Shown here: positions 55,025 to 64,000 of the stretch, one piece after another
How positions within the stretch are numbered: the first letter of the stretch is position 1
Layout: every line of letters begins with the position of its first letter
Source of the DNA: Streptomyces sp. NBC_01016
GTDB taxonomy: Bacteria > Actinomycetota > Actinomycetes > Streptomycetales > Streptomycetaceae
DNA: 64,000 nt
NCBI RefSeq assembly: GCF_026341035.1
Contig: NZ_JAPEOQ010000002.1
Location: 1,302,001 to 1,366,000 of the forward strand
Reading direction: 5' to 3'
The notes under the pieces: model-generated
Seen by the model: the letters and a program-made list of their open reading frames with translations, nothing else
The model's database searches: none
Told to the model about the DNA's origin: nothing
Position numbers and translations under genes: made by a program

Positions 55025-55636
55025 ATGGAGCATCCAACGCCCCTGCGCCGCAAGCCCGTTCAGCGGCGCAGCGCCGAGCGTCTGACCCGGATTCTCGACG
55101 CCTGTGCCGAACTTCTCGACGAGACGGGCTACGACGAGCTGAGCACCCGCGCCGTCGCGCACCGCGCCGAGGTCCCCATCGGCTCGGTCTACCGCTTCTT
55201 CGGCAACAAGCGGGCCCTGGTCGACGCGCTGGCCGAGCGCAATCTCGACCGGTACGTGCGGCGGGTCACCGCGCGCCTCAGGGACGTCCCCACCGGCGAC
55301 TGGCGGGCCGCGATGGACGCGGTGCTCGACGAGTACCTCGCGATGAAGCGCACGGCGCCGGGCTTCTCCCTGGTCGACTTCGGCACCCAGCTCCCCGTGG
55401 GCGCCCCGGACGCCGACCCCAACCACCGCGTCGCCGACACCCTCACGGACCTCCTCGCCCCACGCCTCGACCGCACCCCGGACCCCGCGCTGCGCCGCGC
55501 GTTCCTGGTCGCCGTCGAATCCGCCGACGCCCTGGTCCGGCTCGCGTTCCGCATCGACCCGGAGCGCGGGGACGCGGCGGTGATCGGGGAGGTGCGGGAG
55601 CTGCTGCGGGCGTACCTGGCGCGCGTGCTCGACTGA
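55025..55636 (+). CDS. TetR family regulator
   Basis: 203 residues, ATG 55025, 11 nt after the lipoprotein stop. HTH: RSAERLTRILDACAELLDETGYDELSTRAVAHRAEVPIGSVYRFFGNKRALVDALAERN. The C-terminal domain has no diagnostic motif by eye. It could regulate its own operon with the lipoprotein, or the CitMHS gene downstream. Confidence 0.92.
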   Translation: MEHPTPLRRKPVQRRSAERLTRILDACAELLDETGYDELSTRAVAHRAEVPIGSVYRFFGNKRALVDALAERNLDRYVRRVTARLRDVPTGDWRAAMDAVLDEYLAMKRTAPGFSLVDFGTQLPVGAPDADPNHRVADTLTDLLAPRLDRTPDPALRRAFLVAVESADALVRLAFRIDPERGDAAVIGEVRELLRAYLARVLD

Positions 55637-57209: not shown

Positions 57210-57313
57210 CCGATGAATCCCGAGAACTGATGAATCCCGAGAGTCGATGAGTGCCGAGACCCGATGAGTTCCAAGAGCCGATGAGTGCCGAGACCCGATG
57301 AATCCTGTGACCT
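57196..57313 (+). repeat. 17-bp tandem array overlapping the CitMHS stop codon
   Basis: Six clear 17-bp units start at 57212, 57229, 57246, 57263, 57280 and 57297. Consensus is GATGARTSCCGAGACCC, and each carries GATGA. The end of the CitMHS gene (GAATCGTGTGACC, stop at 57207) matches the last unit (GAATCCTGTGACC), so the gene end looks like the founding unit. The array runs up to the start of the next gene. Confidence 0.88.
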
Positions 57314-58541: not shown

Positions 58542-58571
58542 GCCTCCACCCCGGTACCCCCTGGACCCCAG

Positions 58572-58590
58572 AAACTAGCGACGCTAGTTT
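58572..58590. promoter_or_regulatory. Perfect 19-bp palindrome upstream of the alcohol dehydrogenase
   Basis: AAACTAGCG-A-CGCTAGTTT, 52 nt before the adh start. The site at 63150-63168 beside a TetR gene is a close relative, so this is a candidate operator of that TetR. Confidence 0.75.
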
Positions 58591-58641
58591 GGATCGGCAC
58601 GTACGTGACATCCCGCACTCGCTCAGGGAGTTGTGCTCATC

Positions 58642-59724
58642 ATGGTCCGCGCCGCTGTACTGCCCGCCGTCGGCTCCCCGCTGGAGATCGCCGACATCGA
58701 CCTGCCCGAACCGGGGCCCGGCCAGGTCCGGGTGCGGCTGGCCGCCGCCGGTGTCTGCCACTCCGACCTGTCCCTGACCAACGGCACCATGCGGGTCCCG
58801 GTCCCCGCGGTCCTCGGCCACGAGGGCGCGGGCACCGTCGTCTCCGTCGGCGACGGCGTCACGCACGTGGCCCCCGGTGACGGCGTCGTCCTCAACTGGG
58901 CGCCCTCCTGCGGCAGCTGCCACGCCTGCACGCTCGGCGAGGTGTGGCTGTGCGCCAACGCCCTCACGGGCGCCGCCAACATCCACGCGAAGCGCGCGTC
59001 CGACGGCAGTGACCTCCATCCCGGCCTGAACGTCGCCGCGTTCGCTGAGGAGACGGTCGTCGCCGCGAACTGCGTGCTGCCGGTGCCGGACGGCGTCCCG
59101 CTCATCGACGCGGCCCTGCTCGGCTGCGCCGTGCTCACCGGCTACGGCGCCGTGCACCACTCCGCCCGCGTACGGGAGGGGGAGACCGTCGCGGTGTACG
59201 GCGTCGGCGGCGTCGGCCTCGCCACGCTCCAGGCCGCGCGCATCGCGGGCGCCTCGAAGATCATCGCGGTCGACGTCTCCCCGGAGAAGGAGGCGCTGGC
59301 GCGCGCGGCGGGCGCCACGGACTACGTGATCGCCTCCGAGACGACCGCGCGCGAGATCCGCGGGCTCACGGACAAGCAGGGCGTCGACGTGGCCGTGGAG
59401 TGCGTCGGCCGTGCCGTCACGATCCGTACCGCCTGGGAGTCCACCCGGCGCGGCGGCCGCACCACCGTCGTCGGCATCGGCGGCAAGGACCAGCAGGTCA
59501 CCTTCAACGCCCTGGAGATCTTCCACTGGGGCCGCACGCTGTCCGGCTGCGTCTACGGCAACTGCGACCCGGCCCAGGACCTCCCGGTGCTCGCCGAGCA
59601 CATCCGCGAGGGCCGCCTCGACCTGAGCACGCTCGTGACCGAGCGGATCGCGCTGGACGGGATCCCGGCGGCGTTCGACAACATGGTGGCGGGCAAGGGC
59701 GGCCGGGCGCTCGTCGTGTTTTAG
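58642..59724 (+). CDS. Zinc-dependent alcohol dehydrogenase
   Basis: 360 residues from ATG 58642 (GGGAG upstream; GTG 58633 possible). MDR-family ADH: catalytic zinc ligands in GVCHSDL and GHEGAGTV, structural zinc cysteines in CGSCHACTLGEVWLC, the Rossmann motif GVGGVGLATLQAARIAGA, and an acidic residue in IAVDVSPEKE favouring NAD+. Oxidises an alcohol to an aldehyde or ketone. The upstream palindrome suggests TetR regulation shared with the acyl-CoA dehydrogenase. The stop codon starts a 17-bp tandem array. Confidence 0.93.
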   Translation: MVRAAVLPAVGSPLEIADIDLPEPGPGQVRVRLAAAGVCHSDLSLTNGTMRVPVPAVLGHEGAGTVVSVGDGVTHVAPGDGVVLNWAPSCGSCHACTLGEVWLCANALTGAANIHAKRASDGSDLHPGLNVAAFAEETVVAANCVLPVPDGVPLIDAALLGCAVLTGYGAVHHSARVREGETVAVYGVGGVGLATLQAARIAGASKIIAVDVSPEKEALARAAGATDYVIASETTAREIRGLTDKQGVDVAVECVGRAVTIRTAWESTRRGGRTTVVGIGGKDQQVTFNALEIFHWGRTLSGCVYGNCDPAQDLPVLAEHIREGRLDLSTLVTERIALDGIPAAFDNMVAGKGGRALVVF

Positions 59725-59786
59725 CGATGCGGCGGTTTTGGCGATGCCCCGGTCTTGGCGTTGCTCCGGTTTTGGCGATGCCGCGG
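59719..59786 (+). repeat. 17-bp tandem array beginning at the adh stop codon
   Basis: Four units of 17 bp start at 59719, 59736, 59753 and 59770. Unit 1, TTTTAGCGATGCGGCGG, contains the stop codon TAG; units 2 and 4 read TTTTGGCGATGC followed by CCCGG or CGCGG. The sequence is unrelated to the CitMHS array although the period is the same. Confidence 0.9.
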
Positions 59787-59876
59787 CCGATGAGTTCCCG
59801 GCTGGCGTCCGGTCTGTAGGAGGAGAAGCCTGATACAGGCCGGCACCGCGCCGGATCGGGAACCAGGAGGCCCACC

Positions 59877-60359
59877 ATGCCCGCCACCGCTCAGAAGATC
59901 CGCCCCTGTCTGTGGTTCGACGGCAAGGCCGAGGAAGCCGTCGACTTCTACATGTCGCTCTTCCCCGGTTCCGACTCCGAGATCCTGGAGGTCCAGCGCT
60001 GGGGCAAGGAGGGGCCCGGTGTGCCCGGCTCCGTCCTCACCATGGAGTTCCGGCTCGCGGGCAACGAGTACCAGGCGCTGAACGGCGGCCCCGAGTTCAA
60101 GTTCAACGAAGCGGTCTCGCTCTCCGTCGACTGCGCCGACCAGGCCGAGGTCGACCGGCTGTGGGAGCGGATCACGGCGGACGGCGGCGAGGGCGGGCCG
60201 TGCGGCTGGTGCAAGGACAAGTTCGGGCTGTCCTGGCAGATCGTTCCGCGCCGGCTCGTCGAACTCCTCGCCGACCCGGACGAGGCGCGGGCCGCGAGGG
60301 TGCTGGCCGCGATGATGAAGATGGGCAAACTGGACGTCGCCGCGCTCGAGTCGGCTTAA
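59877..60359 (+). CDS. VOC-superfamily (PhnB/3-DMU9-MT-like) protein
   Basis: 160 residues, ATG 59877 after CAGGAGG. Glyoxalase/VOC fold: IRPCLWFDGKAEEAVDFYMSLFPGSD, ALNGGPEFKFNEAVSLSVDC, and GGEGGPCGWCKDKFGLSWQIVPRRL, as in PhnB/3-demethylubiquinone methyltransferase-like proteins. The actual reaction is unknown; many are dioxygenase- or resistance-like. The 45-bp repeat follows 5 nt after its stop. Confidence 0.92.
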   Translation: MPATAQKIRPCLWFDGKAEEAVDFYMSLFPGSDSEILEVQRWGKEGPGVPGSVLTMEFRLAGNEYQALNGGPEFKFNEAVSLSVDCADQAEVDRLWERITADGGEGGPCGWCKDKFGLSWQIVPRRLVELLADPDEARAARVLAAMMKMGKLDVAALESA

Positions 60360-60364
60360 AGGAT

Positions 60365-60448
60365 CGGGGCTCCGCCCCGTACCCCGCGCCTCAAACGCCG
60401 GCGGGGCTGGATATGCCGATCCCCAGCGGGGTCCGGGGCGGAGCCCCG
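60365..60448. repeat. 45-bp repeat copy 2, forming a long terminator-like inverted repeat
   Basis: 60365-60409 is the second copy of the 45-bp repeat. Beyond it, 60426-60448 is the inverse of its first 23 bases (one mismatch), giving a large hairpin between convergent stops (60359 and 60483). Confidence 0.85.
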
Positions 60449-60482
60449 AGAGCGTCACCACGGACCCCGCGAGACGGAACAC

Positions 60483-61475
60483 TCAGGCCGCCCCCGGTGA
60501 CACCAACCGGGGGAACGACCTCGCCGCGACCAGGAACACCAACGTCGTCAGTGCGAACGGCCACGTGAACATGTGGCCGCCCACCGGCGCCGCCAACGCC
60601 CCGAACGCAGGCGCGCACACCGTCGCGGCGACCGCCCCCGCCACGGCATACGGCACCGTACGCCGCGTGCCCTCGAGGAACACCCCGCAGAGCGCGAGCG
60701 CGACCAGCACCGCGTTGTACGCGGACGTGCCGTCGGCCAGCTGCGCGGCGGGCTCGCCGAGGGCCCACGCGGTCGCCATGCCCGCGACGTTCCCGAGGCA
60801 GGCCACGCCCGCGACCCGCGGCCCGGCCACCAGCAGCCCGGCGAGCACCAGGGCCCCCGCGTACCACTGCGGCATCAGGAAGATCTGGCCGAATCCGGCG
60901 AAGAACCCCCGTACGGCTTCGTCGAGTTGGAGTCCTGTCCTGGCCCCGGACACCGCCTGCGGGAACGCGGCGATGCCGCCCCCGCCGGTCCACACCCGCG
61001 CGAACCCGGGCGCGGCCAGCGTGATGACGCTCGCCACGAGGCAGAACGGCAGCGTCAGGGCGGGCAGCCCCCACGCCCCGAGGGCCCGCCCCGCGGCGGC
61101 GGTGGCCACGGTCGCGGCGGCGCAGCCGAGCAGGGCCACGAGCACCGAGGACAGCTGGTCGGGGTTGAGGAAGACGGCACAACTCACGCCCACGAGGCAG
61201 GCGTTGAAGCCCTCCATGCCGAGCGTGAGCCGCTCCTTCTCCACGCCGAGCAGCGCCGCGACCAGCGTGCCGACGGCCGCGCCCCCGACCCCGTAGAGCC
61301 CGTACTCCCACCCGGCGGAGAACAGGGCCGCGGCGAACAGCGCGCCGGTGAGCGCGCGCGGCAGGAACGTCACCTGCCCGATCCCGCGCAGCACGCGCAG
61401 CGCGAACTGTCTACAGTCGGTTGCCCAACTCTGCCCGATTTCCTGGTGAATCGCGGCATCCACCGTCTGCGCCAT
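60483..61475 (-). CDS. Urea transporter (UT family)
   Basis: 330 residues, about 10 TM helices, ATG 61475. Bacterial UT features: LPRALTGALFAAALFS, twin-repeat segments LTLGMEGFNACLVGVSCAVFLNP and DGTSAYNAVLVALALCGVFLEG, and LPALTLPFCLVASVITLAA. It lets urea pass down its gradient through a channel-like pore. No urease or urea-amidolyase gene is nearby. Weak upstream signals. Confidence 0.9.
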   Translation of the reverse strand: MAQTVDAAIHQEIGQSWATDCRQFALRVLRGIGQVTFLPRALTGALFAAALFSAGWEYGLYGVGGAAVGTLVAALLGVEKERLTLGMEGFNACLVGVSCAVFLNPDQLSSVLVALLGCAAATVATAAAGRALGAWGLPALTLPFCLVASVITLAAPGFARVWTGGGGIAAFPQAVSGARTGLQLDEAVRGFFAGFGQIFLMPQWYAGALVLAGLLVAGPRVAGVACLGNVAGMATAWALGEPAAQLADGTSAYNAVLVALALCGVFLEGTRRTVPYAVAGAVAATVCAPAFGALAAPVGGHMFTWPFALTTLVFLVAARSFPRLVSPGAA

Positions 61476-61581
61476 GCGCCGCTCCCGTGTTACGAAGATG
61501 TTTCCCGGCCCGGCGAATGTACGCTACAGCTACTTCCGGGGAAGATCCCGGGCGGGGGCGGGAACGCGCCACGGCGCCCGC

Positions 61582-62352
61582 TCAGCGCAGCGCCGCCACT
61601 CCCAGCTCGGCCCGCAGCGCCCGCTCCCCGGCCCCGGTCACCCGCACCGCCCGCTCGGAGCCGACCCGCTCGACCCAGCCGGCCGCGAAGGCGTGGGCGC
61701 ACAGCGCGGCGCCCGCCCGTCCGGCGAGGTGGAGACGGCGCTCCGTCCAGTCGAGGCAGCCGCGCGTCAGCGGCCGCCGCGGTCCGGGCTCCAGCGGCGC
61801 CCCGAGCGCCCGGAACCAGCCGTGCCCGGCGTCGGTGAGTGCGAAGGTGGAGGGGGCGGGGGAGTCGCCGGATCCGCCCAATCCGCCCGATGCGCCCAAT
61901 CCGCCGGATTCGGCGTCGGCCCGCAGCAGCCCCCGCTCGACCATCGCGTCGGTGACCGTGATCCCGAGCCGGCCCGCCAGGTGGTCGTAACAGGTCCGCC
62001 CGCGGGCCATCGCCGTCCGCGCCGACGCGGCCCGCAGTGTCGGAGGCCGCTCGCCGCCGTCCGGCACGGCGTACCCGGCGAGGCCCTCCAGGAGCTGCGC
62101 GACCTGCGCGTCGGCGAGCCGCAGATACCGGTGGCGGCCCTGCCGCTCCTCGGCGAGCAGCCCGCCCGCGACGAGCTTGCCGAGGTGCTCGCTCGCGGTC
62201 GACGCCGCGACGCCCGCGTGCCGCGCCAGCTCGCCCGCCGTCCACGCCCGGCCGTCGAGCAGCGCGAGCAGGCAGGCGGCCCGCGTCTCGTCGGCGATCA
62301 GCGAGGCGAGGGCGGCGAGGCGCGGAGCGCCGGGTTCCTTCGAGGCGGCCAT
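61582..62352 (-). CDS. ArsR-like winged-helix regulator
   Basis: 256 residues. N-terminal HTH (RLAALASLIADETRAACLLALLDGRAWTAGELARHAGVAASTASEHLGKLVAGGLLAEERQGRHRYLRL) of the ArsR type. A longer C-terminal part of about 150 residues (RGRTCYDHLAGRLGITVTDAMVERGLL; CLDWTERRLHLAGRAGAALCAHAF) is seen in a Streptomyces subgroup. Contains a Gly/Ser low-complexity insert (ESGGLGASGGLGGSG). The Cys residues could sense a metal. ATG 62352 lacks a clear SD. Confidence 0.88.
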   Translation of the reverse strand: MAASKEPGAPRLAALASLIADETRAACLLALLDGRAWTAGELARHAGVAASTASEHLGKLVAGGLLAEERQGRHRYLRLADAQVAQLLEGLAGYAVPDGGERPPTLRAASARTAMARGRTCYDHLAGRLGITVTDAMVERGLLRADAESGGLGASGGLGGSGDSPAPSTFALTDAGHGWFRALGAPLEPGPRRPLTRGCLDWTERRLHLAGRAGAALCAHAFAAGWVERVGSERAVRVTGAGERALRAELGVAALR

Positions 62353-62386
62353 GCGTCAAGGATGACCCCGGCACGCTTCGGCGGCC

Positions 62387-62475
62387 GCCGATACGTCAGC
62401 GGTCGGTGGCTGCCGATACGTCAGCGGTCGATGGCTGCCGATACGTCAGCGGCCGGTGGGCTGCCGAAATATCAG
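62387..62475. repeat. 25-bp tandem array at the TetR stop codon
   Basis: GCCGATACGTCAGC starts at 62387, 62412 and 62437 (period 25), with a degenerate fourth copy GCCGAAATATCAG at 62463. In the leftward direction the fourth copy contains the stop codon (TCA at 62472) of the TetR gene, and each further unit repeats the sequence CTGACGTATCGGC. The array fills the gap to the ArsR-like gene. Confidence 0.88.
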
Positions 62476-63122
62476 TGCGTCCCCGCCGCCACCTGCTCGT
62501 ACTGCACCGCGAGCCCGTCGAGCAGCGCCGTGAGCCCCGTCTCGAAGGCCCGGTCGTCGACGATCTCCTGTCGCTCGGCGAGCAGATGCGCCTGGCCGAG
62601 GTGCGGATAGTCGGCGGGGTCGTACGCCGCCTCGTCGTCGGGGAAGCCGCCCGCGAACGAGCCGAGCGCGGATCCCGTCACGAAGTACCGCATGAGCGCG
62701 CCGATGGACGTGGCCTGCGGCGGCGGCCACCCGGCGTCGACCATCGAGCCGAACACCGCGTCGGCGAGCCGCAGTCCGGCCGGGCGGCGGCCGGGGCCCT
62801 GCGCGAGCACCGGGACGATGTTCGGGTGCGCGCGCAGCGCCGCCCGGTAGGAGACGGCCCAGTCGTGCAGCGCGGTGCGCCAGTCCCGCCCGTCGTCCGT
62901 GTCGAACATCGACAGGTCGACCTGCGCGCTCACCGAGTCGGCGACCGCCTCCAGGATCTGGTCCTTCGTGCGGAAGTGGTTGTACAGGGAGGGCCCGCTC
63001 ACCCCGAGCTCGGCGGCGAGCCGACGCGTCGAGACGGCGGCGAGGCCCTCGGTGTCGACGAGGGCGCGGGCCGCGTCGACGATGCGATCTCTGCTCAGGA
63101 GGGGCTTGCGCGGTCGGGCCAT
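62472..63122 (-). CDS. TetR family regulator with C-terminal TetR_C_1-like domain
   Basis: 216 residues from ATG 63122 (MARPRKPLLSRDRI); upstream in-frame starts at 63131 and 63149 exist. HTH: RDRIVDAARALVDTEGLAAVSTRRLAAELGVSGPSLYNHFRTKDQILEAVADSV. C-terminal domain with GRRPAGLRLADAVFGSMVDAGW. The palindrome at 63150-63168 just upstream, also near the acyl-CoA dehydrogenase start, is its probable operator, shared with the adh site 4.5 kb away. Likely responds to an acyl-CoA or alcohol-derived ligand. Confidence 0.92.
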   Translation of the reverse strand: MARPRKPLLSRDRIVDAARALVDTEGLAAVSTRRLAAELGVSGPSLYNHFRTKDQILEAVADSVSAQVDLSMFDTDDGRDWRTALHDWAVSYRAALRAHPNIVPVLAQGPGRRPAGLRLADAVFGSMVDAGWPPPQATSIGALMRYFVTGSALGSFAGGFPDDEAAYDPADYPHLGQAHLLAERQEIVDDRAFETGLTALLDGLAVQYEQVAAGTH

Positions 63123-63149
63123 GCGGCACATAGTAGGGCTGCAAGCCAA

Positions 63150-63168
63150 AAACTAGCAGTGCTAATTA
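63150..63168. promoter_or_regulatory. TetR operator next to the acyl-CoA dehydrogenase
   Basis: AAACTAGCA-G-TGCTAATTA, 7 of 9 base pairs symmetric, and AAACTAGC is identical to the first half of the adh palindrome at 58572. It overlaps the divergent promoter region of tetR and the acyl-CoA dehydrogenase. Confidence 0.7.
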
Positions 63169-63202: not shown

Positions 63203-64000
63203 ATGAACCTGGAGCTGAGCGAGGAGCAGACGGCGGTGCGCCGGCTCGCCAAGGACTTCGTGGACCGCGAGATCGCGCCGAACGTGGTGGCGTGGGACCG
63301 GTCCGAGGAGGTCGACCGGGGCATCGTCAAGAAGCTCGGCGAGGTCGGCTTCCTGGGCCTGACCATCGACGAGGAGTACGGCGGCTCGGGCGGCGACCAC
63401 CTCGCGTACACGCTGGTCACGGAGGAGCTGGGGCGCGGGGACTCGTCGGTGCGCGGCATCGTCTCGGTCTCCCTCGGCCTGGTCACCAAGCCGATCCAGC
63501 AGTGGGCGAGCGAGGAGCAGAAGCGGCACTGGATCCCGAGGCTGACCGCCGGCGAGGCGCTCGGCTGCTTCGGTCTCACGGAGCCGGGCCACGGCTCGAA
63601 CCCGGCCGACCTCCAGACGCGTGCCGTCCGCGACGGTGACGACTACGTGATCAACGGCACCAAGATCTTCATCACCAACGGCACGTGGGCCGATGTCGTC
63701 CTTCTCTTTGCCCGCACCAACGACACCCCGGGCCACAAGGGCATCTCCGCCTTCCTGGTCCCGACCGACACCCCGGGCCTGACCCGCAACACCATCCACG
63801 GCAAGCTCGGCCTGCGCGGCCAGACCACGGCCGAGCTGGTCCTGGAGGACGTCCGCGTGCCGGCTTCCGCGCTGATGGGCCCGGAGGGCAAGGGCTTCTC
63901 GATCGCCATGTCCGCGCTCGCCAAGGGCCGGATGTCGGTGGCCGCAGGCTGCGTGGGCATAGCCCAGGCCGCCCTCGACGCGGCCGTCGGATACGCGGGC
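63203..64000 (+). CDS. Acyl-CoA dehydrogenase (3' end outside window)
   Basis: 266 residues visible of about 380, ATG 63203 after GGGAG. Flavin-dependent enzyme for the first step of acyl-CoA oxidation. Visible: N-terminal helical domain (LSEEQTAVRRLAKDFVDREIAP), the FAD/substrate motif CFGLTEPGHGSNPADLQTRA, the beta-domain motif IFITNGTWADVVLLFART, and the start of the C-terminal helices (GKGFSIAMSALAKGRMSVAAGCVG). The catalytic Glu lies beyond the window. Likely regulated by the divergent TetR. Confidence 0.95.
   Translation, partial: MNLELSEEQTAVRRLAKDFVDREIAPNVVAWDRSEEVDRGIVKKLGEVGFLGLTIDEEYGGSGGDHLAYTLVTEELGRGDSSVRGIVSVSLGLVTKPIQQWASEEQKRHWIPRLTAGEALGCFGLTEPGHGSNPADLQTRAVRDGDDYVINGTKIFITNGTWADVVLLFARTNDTPGHKGISAFLVPTDTPGLTRNTIHGKLGLRGQTTAELVLEDVRVPASALMGPEGKGFSIAMSALAKGRMSVAAGCVGIAQAALDAAVGYAG

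Follow-up and report, generated by a model that had tools for sequence, protein, structure and literature searches.

The 64-kb stretch of Streptomyces sp. NBC_01016 analysed here (the window, C1:1302001–1366000 of the 10.0-Mb genome G000) carries a TetR-family regulator gene and two enzyme genes that share a palindrome, a candidate operator. The enzyme genes are adh, coding for a zinc-dependent medium-chain alcohol dehydrogenase (58642–59724, plus strand; open reading frame listed from GTG 58633), and acdH, coding for an acyl-CoA dehydrogenase (63203–64000, plus strand, running past the window end; full length at L002:3204–4355). The regulator gene, tetR (62472–63122, minus strand; MARPRKPLLS start, open reading frame listed from TTG 63149), is divergent from acdH. 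Pfam domains bear out all three gene calls, which were made in a preliminary description of the stretch: PF08240 and PF00107 in ADH; PF02771, PF02770 and PF00441 in AcdH; and in TetR the N-terminal helix-turn-helix PF00440 (55.6 bits, cut-off 24) and the C-terminal ligand and dimer domain PF02909, TetR_C_1 (59.8 bits, cut-off 21). The structure model of TetR is all-helical, with a mean predicted local distance difference test (pLDDT) score of 87.5; by sequence and by fold, TetR matches regulators of the TetR/ActR type. The nearest solved structures to AcdH are short-chain or butyryl-CoA dehydrogenases.

Operator 1, AAACTAGCG-A-CGCTAGTTT (58572–58590), lies upstream of adh and is a perfect 9+1+9 palindrome; operator 2, AAACTAGCA-G-TGCTAATTA (63150–63168), lies in the divergent gap between tetR and acdH, with 7 of 9 arm positions pairing. 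The preliminary description had noted these two near-identical palindromes, and they prove to be the sole copies in the window: the pattern AACTAGC-N3-GCTAGTT, allowed up to three mismatches, matches at 58573–58589 (none) and 63151–63167 (one) and nowhere else in the 64 kb. Dinucleotide shuffles of the window give an expectation of 0.40 matches at this threshold, with two or more in 7 of 100 shuffles, and when the window was resampled 40 times under a second-order Markov model the exact form AACTAGCNNNGCTARTT never occurred. Taken alone, the two window sites would be modest evidence. Both overlap putative promoter elements. A probable plus-strand promoter at 58561–58590 combines a −35-like CTGGAC (58561–58566), an 18-bp spacer and a −10-like TAGTTT (58585–58590), the last overlapping the right arm of operator 1; the arms of operator 2 contain likely −10 elements for acdH (TAATTA, 63163–63168) and for tetR (TAGTTT, minus strand, 63155–63150).

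Conservation of the sites was followed in a panel of 61 Streptomyces genomes, from which 50 tetR loci were read, and in a separate collection of 80 Streptomyces loci (the best 80 of 578). Absence of the sites from orthologues would, according to the preliminary description, have spoken against a regulon; the opposite was found. In 78 of the 80 loci the site separates divergent tetR and acdH, the exceptions being L164 and L165, where acdH was not found. A site with at most two mismatches lies 27–29 bases before tetR (41 in L057) in 47 of the 50 panel loci; L051 and L053 have one with three mismatches, and L022 has none. Counted from acdH, all 48 panel genomes with acdH beside tetR carry the site at up to two mismatches, 47 of them at up to one. 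This count leaves out G012 and also G044 and G047, which have no acdH beside tetR, and the three-mismatch site by tetR in G047 (L053) went uncounted because acdH is missing there.

The adh site has a different history. Relatives have adh behind an aldehyde dehydrogenase gene, aldh, as an aldh-adh pair, and there the site stands before aldh: it is present with at most one mismatch in 67 of the 69 loci of the collection where aldh was found, and directly before adh in none of the 70 loci with adh. In the panel it precedes aldh at up to two mismatches in 46/46 tetR-carrying genomes with a found aldh start (45 at up to one) and in 0/2 genomes lacking tetR; five further tetR-carrying genomes, where the gene was not found or not readable, are outside this count. 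The preliminary assignment of operator 1 to adh therefore stands for the window, where it does precede adh, and gives way in relatives, where the operator belongs to aldh.

The closest relative among the matches listed, L128 (tetR 96% identical), retains operator-aldh-adh intact, and a blastn alignment of the window with L128 explains the difference. The two align on both sides of a 29-bp junction (58593–58621) that replaces about 1.5 kb holding aldh in L128; operator 1 probably adjoins adh because aldh dropped out of the window lineage immediately after the promoter-operator, leaving adh to inherit it. A genome-wide motif search, as the preliminary description had proposed, finds three sites with at most one mismatch in the same genome: the two of the window and a third at C2:4672621, about 70 bases upstream of the acyl-CoA synthetase gene fadD (L001:8710–10236; PF00501). 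One motif therefore fronts enzymes of alcohol oxidation, acid activation and acyl-CoA oxidation together with the regulator. At the third site, too, a gene seems to be gone. This genome has no close aldh (best match 46%) and no close thiolase (best match 57%), the third operator standing directly before fadD, so that orthologues of both genes appear lost. G059 has fadD as well, and its sequence ahead of the operator matches that of the window's genome (77% over 266 columns); there fadD is separated from the operator by about 2 kb, which hold a thiolase and a short-chain dehydrogenase (SDR) gene. Two transcription units of the window lineage thus appear, from these alignments, to have lost their leading genes (aldh and thiolase) and kept their operators.

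Short repeats occur near these places. Tandem repeats of 17 bases lie at 57210–57305, between citMHS and an MFS gene, and at 59718–59786, just after adh; the aldh-adh gap of L128 holds a similar short repeat. They may have assisted local deletions.

Sites in other panel genomes add two targets, gcdH and a thiolase gene. Among solved structures, GcdH is most similar to glutaryl-CoA dehydrogenases (3sf6, 5e-177; human 1sir, 1.6e-115), and its DSG-x-RS and TYEGT stretches, which we take to hold the carboxylate-binding Arg and the catalytic Glu, align with the human enzyme. By these marks the gcdH target qualifies as a glutaryl-CoA dehydrogenase, an activity that is predicted from sequence. In 36 of the 38 panel genomes with both genes on one contig, gcdH lies 40–82 kb from tetR; in the other two it is megabases away. 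Sites with at most two mismatches precede gcdH in 38 of 46 tetR-carrying genomes (11 exact, 25 with at most one mismatch) versus 0 of 9 without tetR. The 46 are those with gcdH at ≥86% identity; G000, G004, G015 and G059, which have only 70–73% homologues, and G043, which has none, fall outside. Seven of the nine genes from tetR-less genomes likewise reach at least 86%; that of G037 is 80% identical and sits beside the same sepF-like gene, and that of G010 (75%, not beside a sepF-like gene) may be a paralogue. For G008 and G050 only some 110–130 upstream bases were available. Fisher's test, which ignores shared ancestry, gives p = 4e-6 for 0/9 and 4e-5 for 0/7 at ≥86%. The gcdH homologue of the window's own genome (72%, C2:4624773) was rejected as an orthologue and taken as a paralogue, since it has no site and does not adjoin the sepF-like neighbour of the orthologues.

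The thiolase gene, sometimes followed by fadD in Streptomyces, carries the site in 17/17 panel genomes that have it (16 exact, one with a single mismatch); its best NCBIfam matches are 3-oxoadipyl-CoA thiolases, under the cut-off. The operator before acdH, thiolase and gcdH in Streptomyces, and before fadD in the window's genome, precedes successive steps of acyl-CoA oxidation, as expected of a β-oxidation regulon. Comparative evidence strongly supports the earlier prediction that one regulator serves adh, acdH and tetR; these do share the operator, and the predicted set is larger than the three, taking in aldh, gcdH, thiolase and acyl-CoA synthetase genes too.

The operator reads AACTAGC-N3-GCTARTT across four promoter classes. 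Over 126 tetR/acdH loci its columns average 1.87 bits, versus 0.86 and 0.30 in the flanks, the left flank of this alignment extending into tetR. Around 96 aldh operators, conservation outside the palindrome centres on a CTGGcG placed 18 bp upstream of the TAGTTT in the right arm; the window has CTGGAC and TAGTTT at these positions.

Across the 61 genomes, 143 places match at up to one mismatch, and 136 are matched by acdH/tetR, aldh, gcdH and thiolase sites, with adh standing for aldh and fadD for thiolase in the window's own genome. The total takes the larger strand count per genome, counts being compared per genome rather than place by place, and three entries, the two own-genome sites and one site of G014, were added manually. 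The seven remaining places fall in G001, G012 (two), G016, G017, G050 and G054. A tetR gene (E up to 1e-40) is present in 51 of the 61 genomes, with a partial match in G012. All 51 have at least one site at up to one mismatch, and nine of the ten tetR-less genomes have none; the tenth, G050, is an 82%-complete draft. Since tetR usually brings its own site, the 51/51 is partly built in, and gcdH is the better test of co-occurrence. Among 1,260 Markov control sequences, each 240 bp long, none contained a site at up to three mismatches.

Outside Streptomyces, eleven genomes were compared, one from another genus of the family and ten from another family of the order. In 11/11 a tetR homologue of 59–70% identity adjoins acdH; near the acdH start, five have one site with one mismatch and six have two sites with two mismatches each, 38 bases apart. 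Wider regions, read for seven of the eleven, show what follows acdH: thiolase-SDR-MaoC-fadD in L350, L351 and L352, thiolase-SDR-MaoC in L353, thiolase-SDR in L349, and fadD alone in L354 and L355. Four of the seven regions thus have an acdH-thiolase-SDR-MaoC row that diverges from tetR across the operator; in three of them fadD follows, and there the operator again heads successive acyl-CoA oxidation steps. The MaoC frame of L350 scores 99.6 bits against PF01575 (cut-off 27). As judged from its domains, the fullest row is a predicted complete set for acyl-CoA activation and one turn of β-oxidation, and this gene order would join genes that in Streptomyces are joined mainly by the operator. 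G059 (L253/L089), where the operator heads thiolase-SDR-fadD, looks like a midway arrangement, with the outgroup row on one side and, on the other, the thiolase-fadD pair or single fadD seen in other Streptomyces.

Two further observations belong here. In L354 (8800 and 8838) and L355 (8521 and 8559), both of one outgroup genus, two imperfect operators lie 38 bases apart and fadD comes directly after acdH. Near acdH of the window's genome, L002:10129–11314 holds a TetR_C_24 regulator gene and a MaoC-type dehydratase gene whose product is 59% identical to the MaoC of the L350 row; no operator within three mismatches was found by this MaoC gene in L002.

Read together, the sites, their conservation, the genes they front, their co-occurrence with tetR and the operators that outlast their first genes, all visible in sequence, make it very probable that TetR represses a β-oxidation regulon with alcohol and aldehyde feeder enzymes through a shared operator. 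We infer that a TetR dimer would bind AAACTAGC-N3-GCTAGTTT and repress tetR/acdH and adh in the window and fadD elsewhere in the genome, through the operator at C2:4672621; in relatives it would also cover aldh-adh, gcdH and thiolase. Because the operator arms overlap putative −10 elements, binding would block RNA polymerase. The position of operator 2 fits autoregulation, as the preliminary description had expected of a TetR protein, and the site missing by tetR in L022 and L164 suggests that autoregulation is not universal. A pathway intermediate would release the repressor, and alcohol, aldehyde and acid activation would then feed one β-oxidation set. Acyl-CoA thioesters are common ligands for such regulators and form the leading candidate class, an assignment we hold tentatively, at somewhat less than an even chance. 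The substrate is harder to name. The short-chain or butyryl affinity of AcdH, and the crotonyl-CoA made by glutaryl-CoA dehydrogenase, allow for C4–C5 acids converging on crotonyl-CoA, a suggestion that is doubtful at present; the branched or cyclic alcohol proposed as carbon source in the preliminary description found no support.

Several observations weigh against this interpretation. L022 and L164, which are without acdH, also have no site by tetR, yet keep the aldh site. Two of the 69 aldh loci (L153 and L156) have no site at up to one mismatch, and among the 46 tetR-carrying genomes gcdH has only a three-mismatch site in three (G022, G032 and G045) and none in five (G025, G031, G041, G047 and G058). 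ADH scores below every NCBIfam cut-off. The genome counts are uncorrected for shared ancestry, and repression rather than activation is assumed from the family. Nor do motif counts exceed those of a reversed-pattern control (139 versus 142 forward matches at up to one mismatch in the 61 genomes); we rejected motif frequency as evidence, and the strength of the case therefore rests on site positions and conservation.

Three other explanations deserve comparison with TetR repression of a shared regulon. The sites might be bound by a different regulator, with TetR beside one of them by chance, and the two loci where tetR persists without an adjacent site while the aldh site remains would suit this. 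It is nevertheless improbable: nine of the ten tetR-less genomes have gcdH, and aldh was found in two, yet nine have no site at up to one mismatch, and the tetR-operator-acdH layout recurs in every genome compared outside the genus, where tetR is just 59–70% identical. Still less credible is that the sites are general promoter sequence, a pair of facing −10 elements, rather than a specific operator. The arms do hold TAGTTT or TAATTT, readable as −10 elements; the left arm, however, which a one-way promoter does not need, is strongly conserved as well at aldh, gcdH and thiolase, and in the panel the sites go missing where tetR is absent.

An unlikely alternative, though the least so of the three, keeps TetR at the operator as an activator or mere fine-tuner whose role is the supply of acyl-CoA precursors for polyketides, not the use of a carbon source. 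TetR proteins placed over −10 elements are usually repressors, which argues against activation; acdH (short-chain type) and gcdH would both give crotonyl-CoA-type products, which suits a precursor role. A proteome study of Streptomyces coelicolor (PMC8062868) points the same way: in mutants of two cpk regulators, cpkN and cpkO, it records shifts of SCO1705, SCO1750, SCO6966 and SCO6968, grouped as lipid-degradation proteins, and it terms SCO6967 a PcaF homologue. Papers naming SCO1705, in the parts available, name no regulator there. These tags may include adh, gcdH, thiolase and a neighbour.

TetR is below the cut-off of all ten NCBIfam families it matches. Two of these were considered and set aside: the tetracycline-resistance repressor TetR (NF010319, 86.5 bits versus 265) and the mycofactocin regulator MftR2 (NF038211, 46.2 bits versus 285). 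The family includes repressors of fatty-acid or acyl-CoA degradation of the Bacillus FadR, PsrA and KstR type. With that class the window regulator shares the TetR fold, a palindromic operator, divergent or unlinked β-oxidation targets and an autoregulatory position; it differs in reaching no NCBIfam equivalog cut-off, in its operator and in targets that include aldh-adh and gcdH. ActR and the tetracycline repressors share its two-domain fold: Foldseek places 3bqy, ActR and TetR(G) among its top hits, with 23–31% identity across the 50 structural matches listed, and by sequence the best match is TetR class A. Their targets are efflux genes and their ligands antibiotics, unlike the catabolic targets here.

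Closer in function is AccR of Streptomyces avermitilis, another Streptomyces TetR protein that controls acyl-CoA metabolism genes through a palindrome, in short-chain acyl-CoA homeostasis. Its reported motif, GTTAA-N6-TTAAC, with targets accD1A1-hmgL-fadE4, echA8, echA9 and fadE2 (PMC10933834), differs from AACTAGC-N3-GCTARTT. AcrT of Saccharopolyspora erythraea and its homologue SCO4194 are likewise actinomycete TetR proteins, acyl-CoA responsiveness being a feature of AcrT; the motif reported for AcrT is nttGaTc, with PKS, ACC, PCC and CS targets (PMC8546615). Identity with AccR or AcrT is thus argued against by the reported motifs rather than by protein comparison. GcdR and CsiR of Pseudomonas putida also regulate glutarate catabolism, but are reported to be of the LysR and GntR families, not TetR (PMC6667623). 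No description of this motif or regulator appeared among the papers listed by searches of the open full-text literature, a scope that takes in few subscription journals.

Other regulatory features lie in the window and genome. About 3.6 tandem copies of the 25-base unit TCGGTGGCTGCCGATACGTCAGCGG (62378–62467) stand just upstream of an ArsR-type regulator gene (61582–62352, minus strand) and are a possible operator array; the core of the repeat was not found in L128. A second TetR regulator gene (TetR_C_22, 55025–55636) lies beside a citrate transporter, and no further copy of the operator within three mismatches occurs there or elsewhere in the window. Elsewhere in the genome, six places match the operator with two mismatches, of which five (L003–L007) were examined and C1:2199524 was left out. 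C1:280812 was rejected, sitting in an apparently tRNA-like stretch, as was the ATCTAGC pair C1:3063696 and C1:3325034, which belongs to another CTAGC-type motif. Around these two places, L003:5647–5713 and L004:5035–5101 each hold two CTAGC-N3-GCTAG palindromes at a spacing of 51 bases; one of the pairs lies close to a P450-like gene, between genes that by eye look to be of IclR and other types. These pairs are probably a motif of related design for another regulator.

The analysis gives a predicted operator, target list and catabolic role to a TetR regulator present in 51 of the 61 Streptomyces genomes sampled, and predicts co-regulation of unlinked genes. It also offers a clear example of how a regulon evolves: in Streptomyces, genes that form a single row in another family lie dispersed, the fragments keep the same operator, and operators outlive the loss of a first gene. 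The ligand can now be searched for directly, and the TetR-operator pair could serve as a sensor part. A more speculative extension, with perhaps one chance in several of holding, is that in most Streptomyces TetR senses the C4–C5 acyl-CoA node (crotonyl-, butyryl- or glutaryl-CoA) and jointly sets the oxidation of C4–C5 alcohols and aldehydes, short-chain acids and glutarate, which would converge on crotonyl-CoA, also a feed for polyketide extender units. If true, the regulator would provide a missing switch linking short-chain carbon use with the supply of antibiotic precursors.

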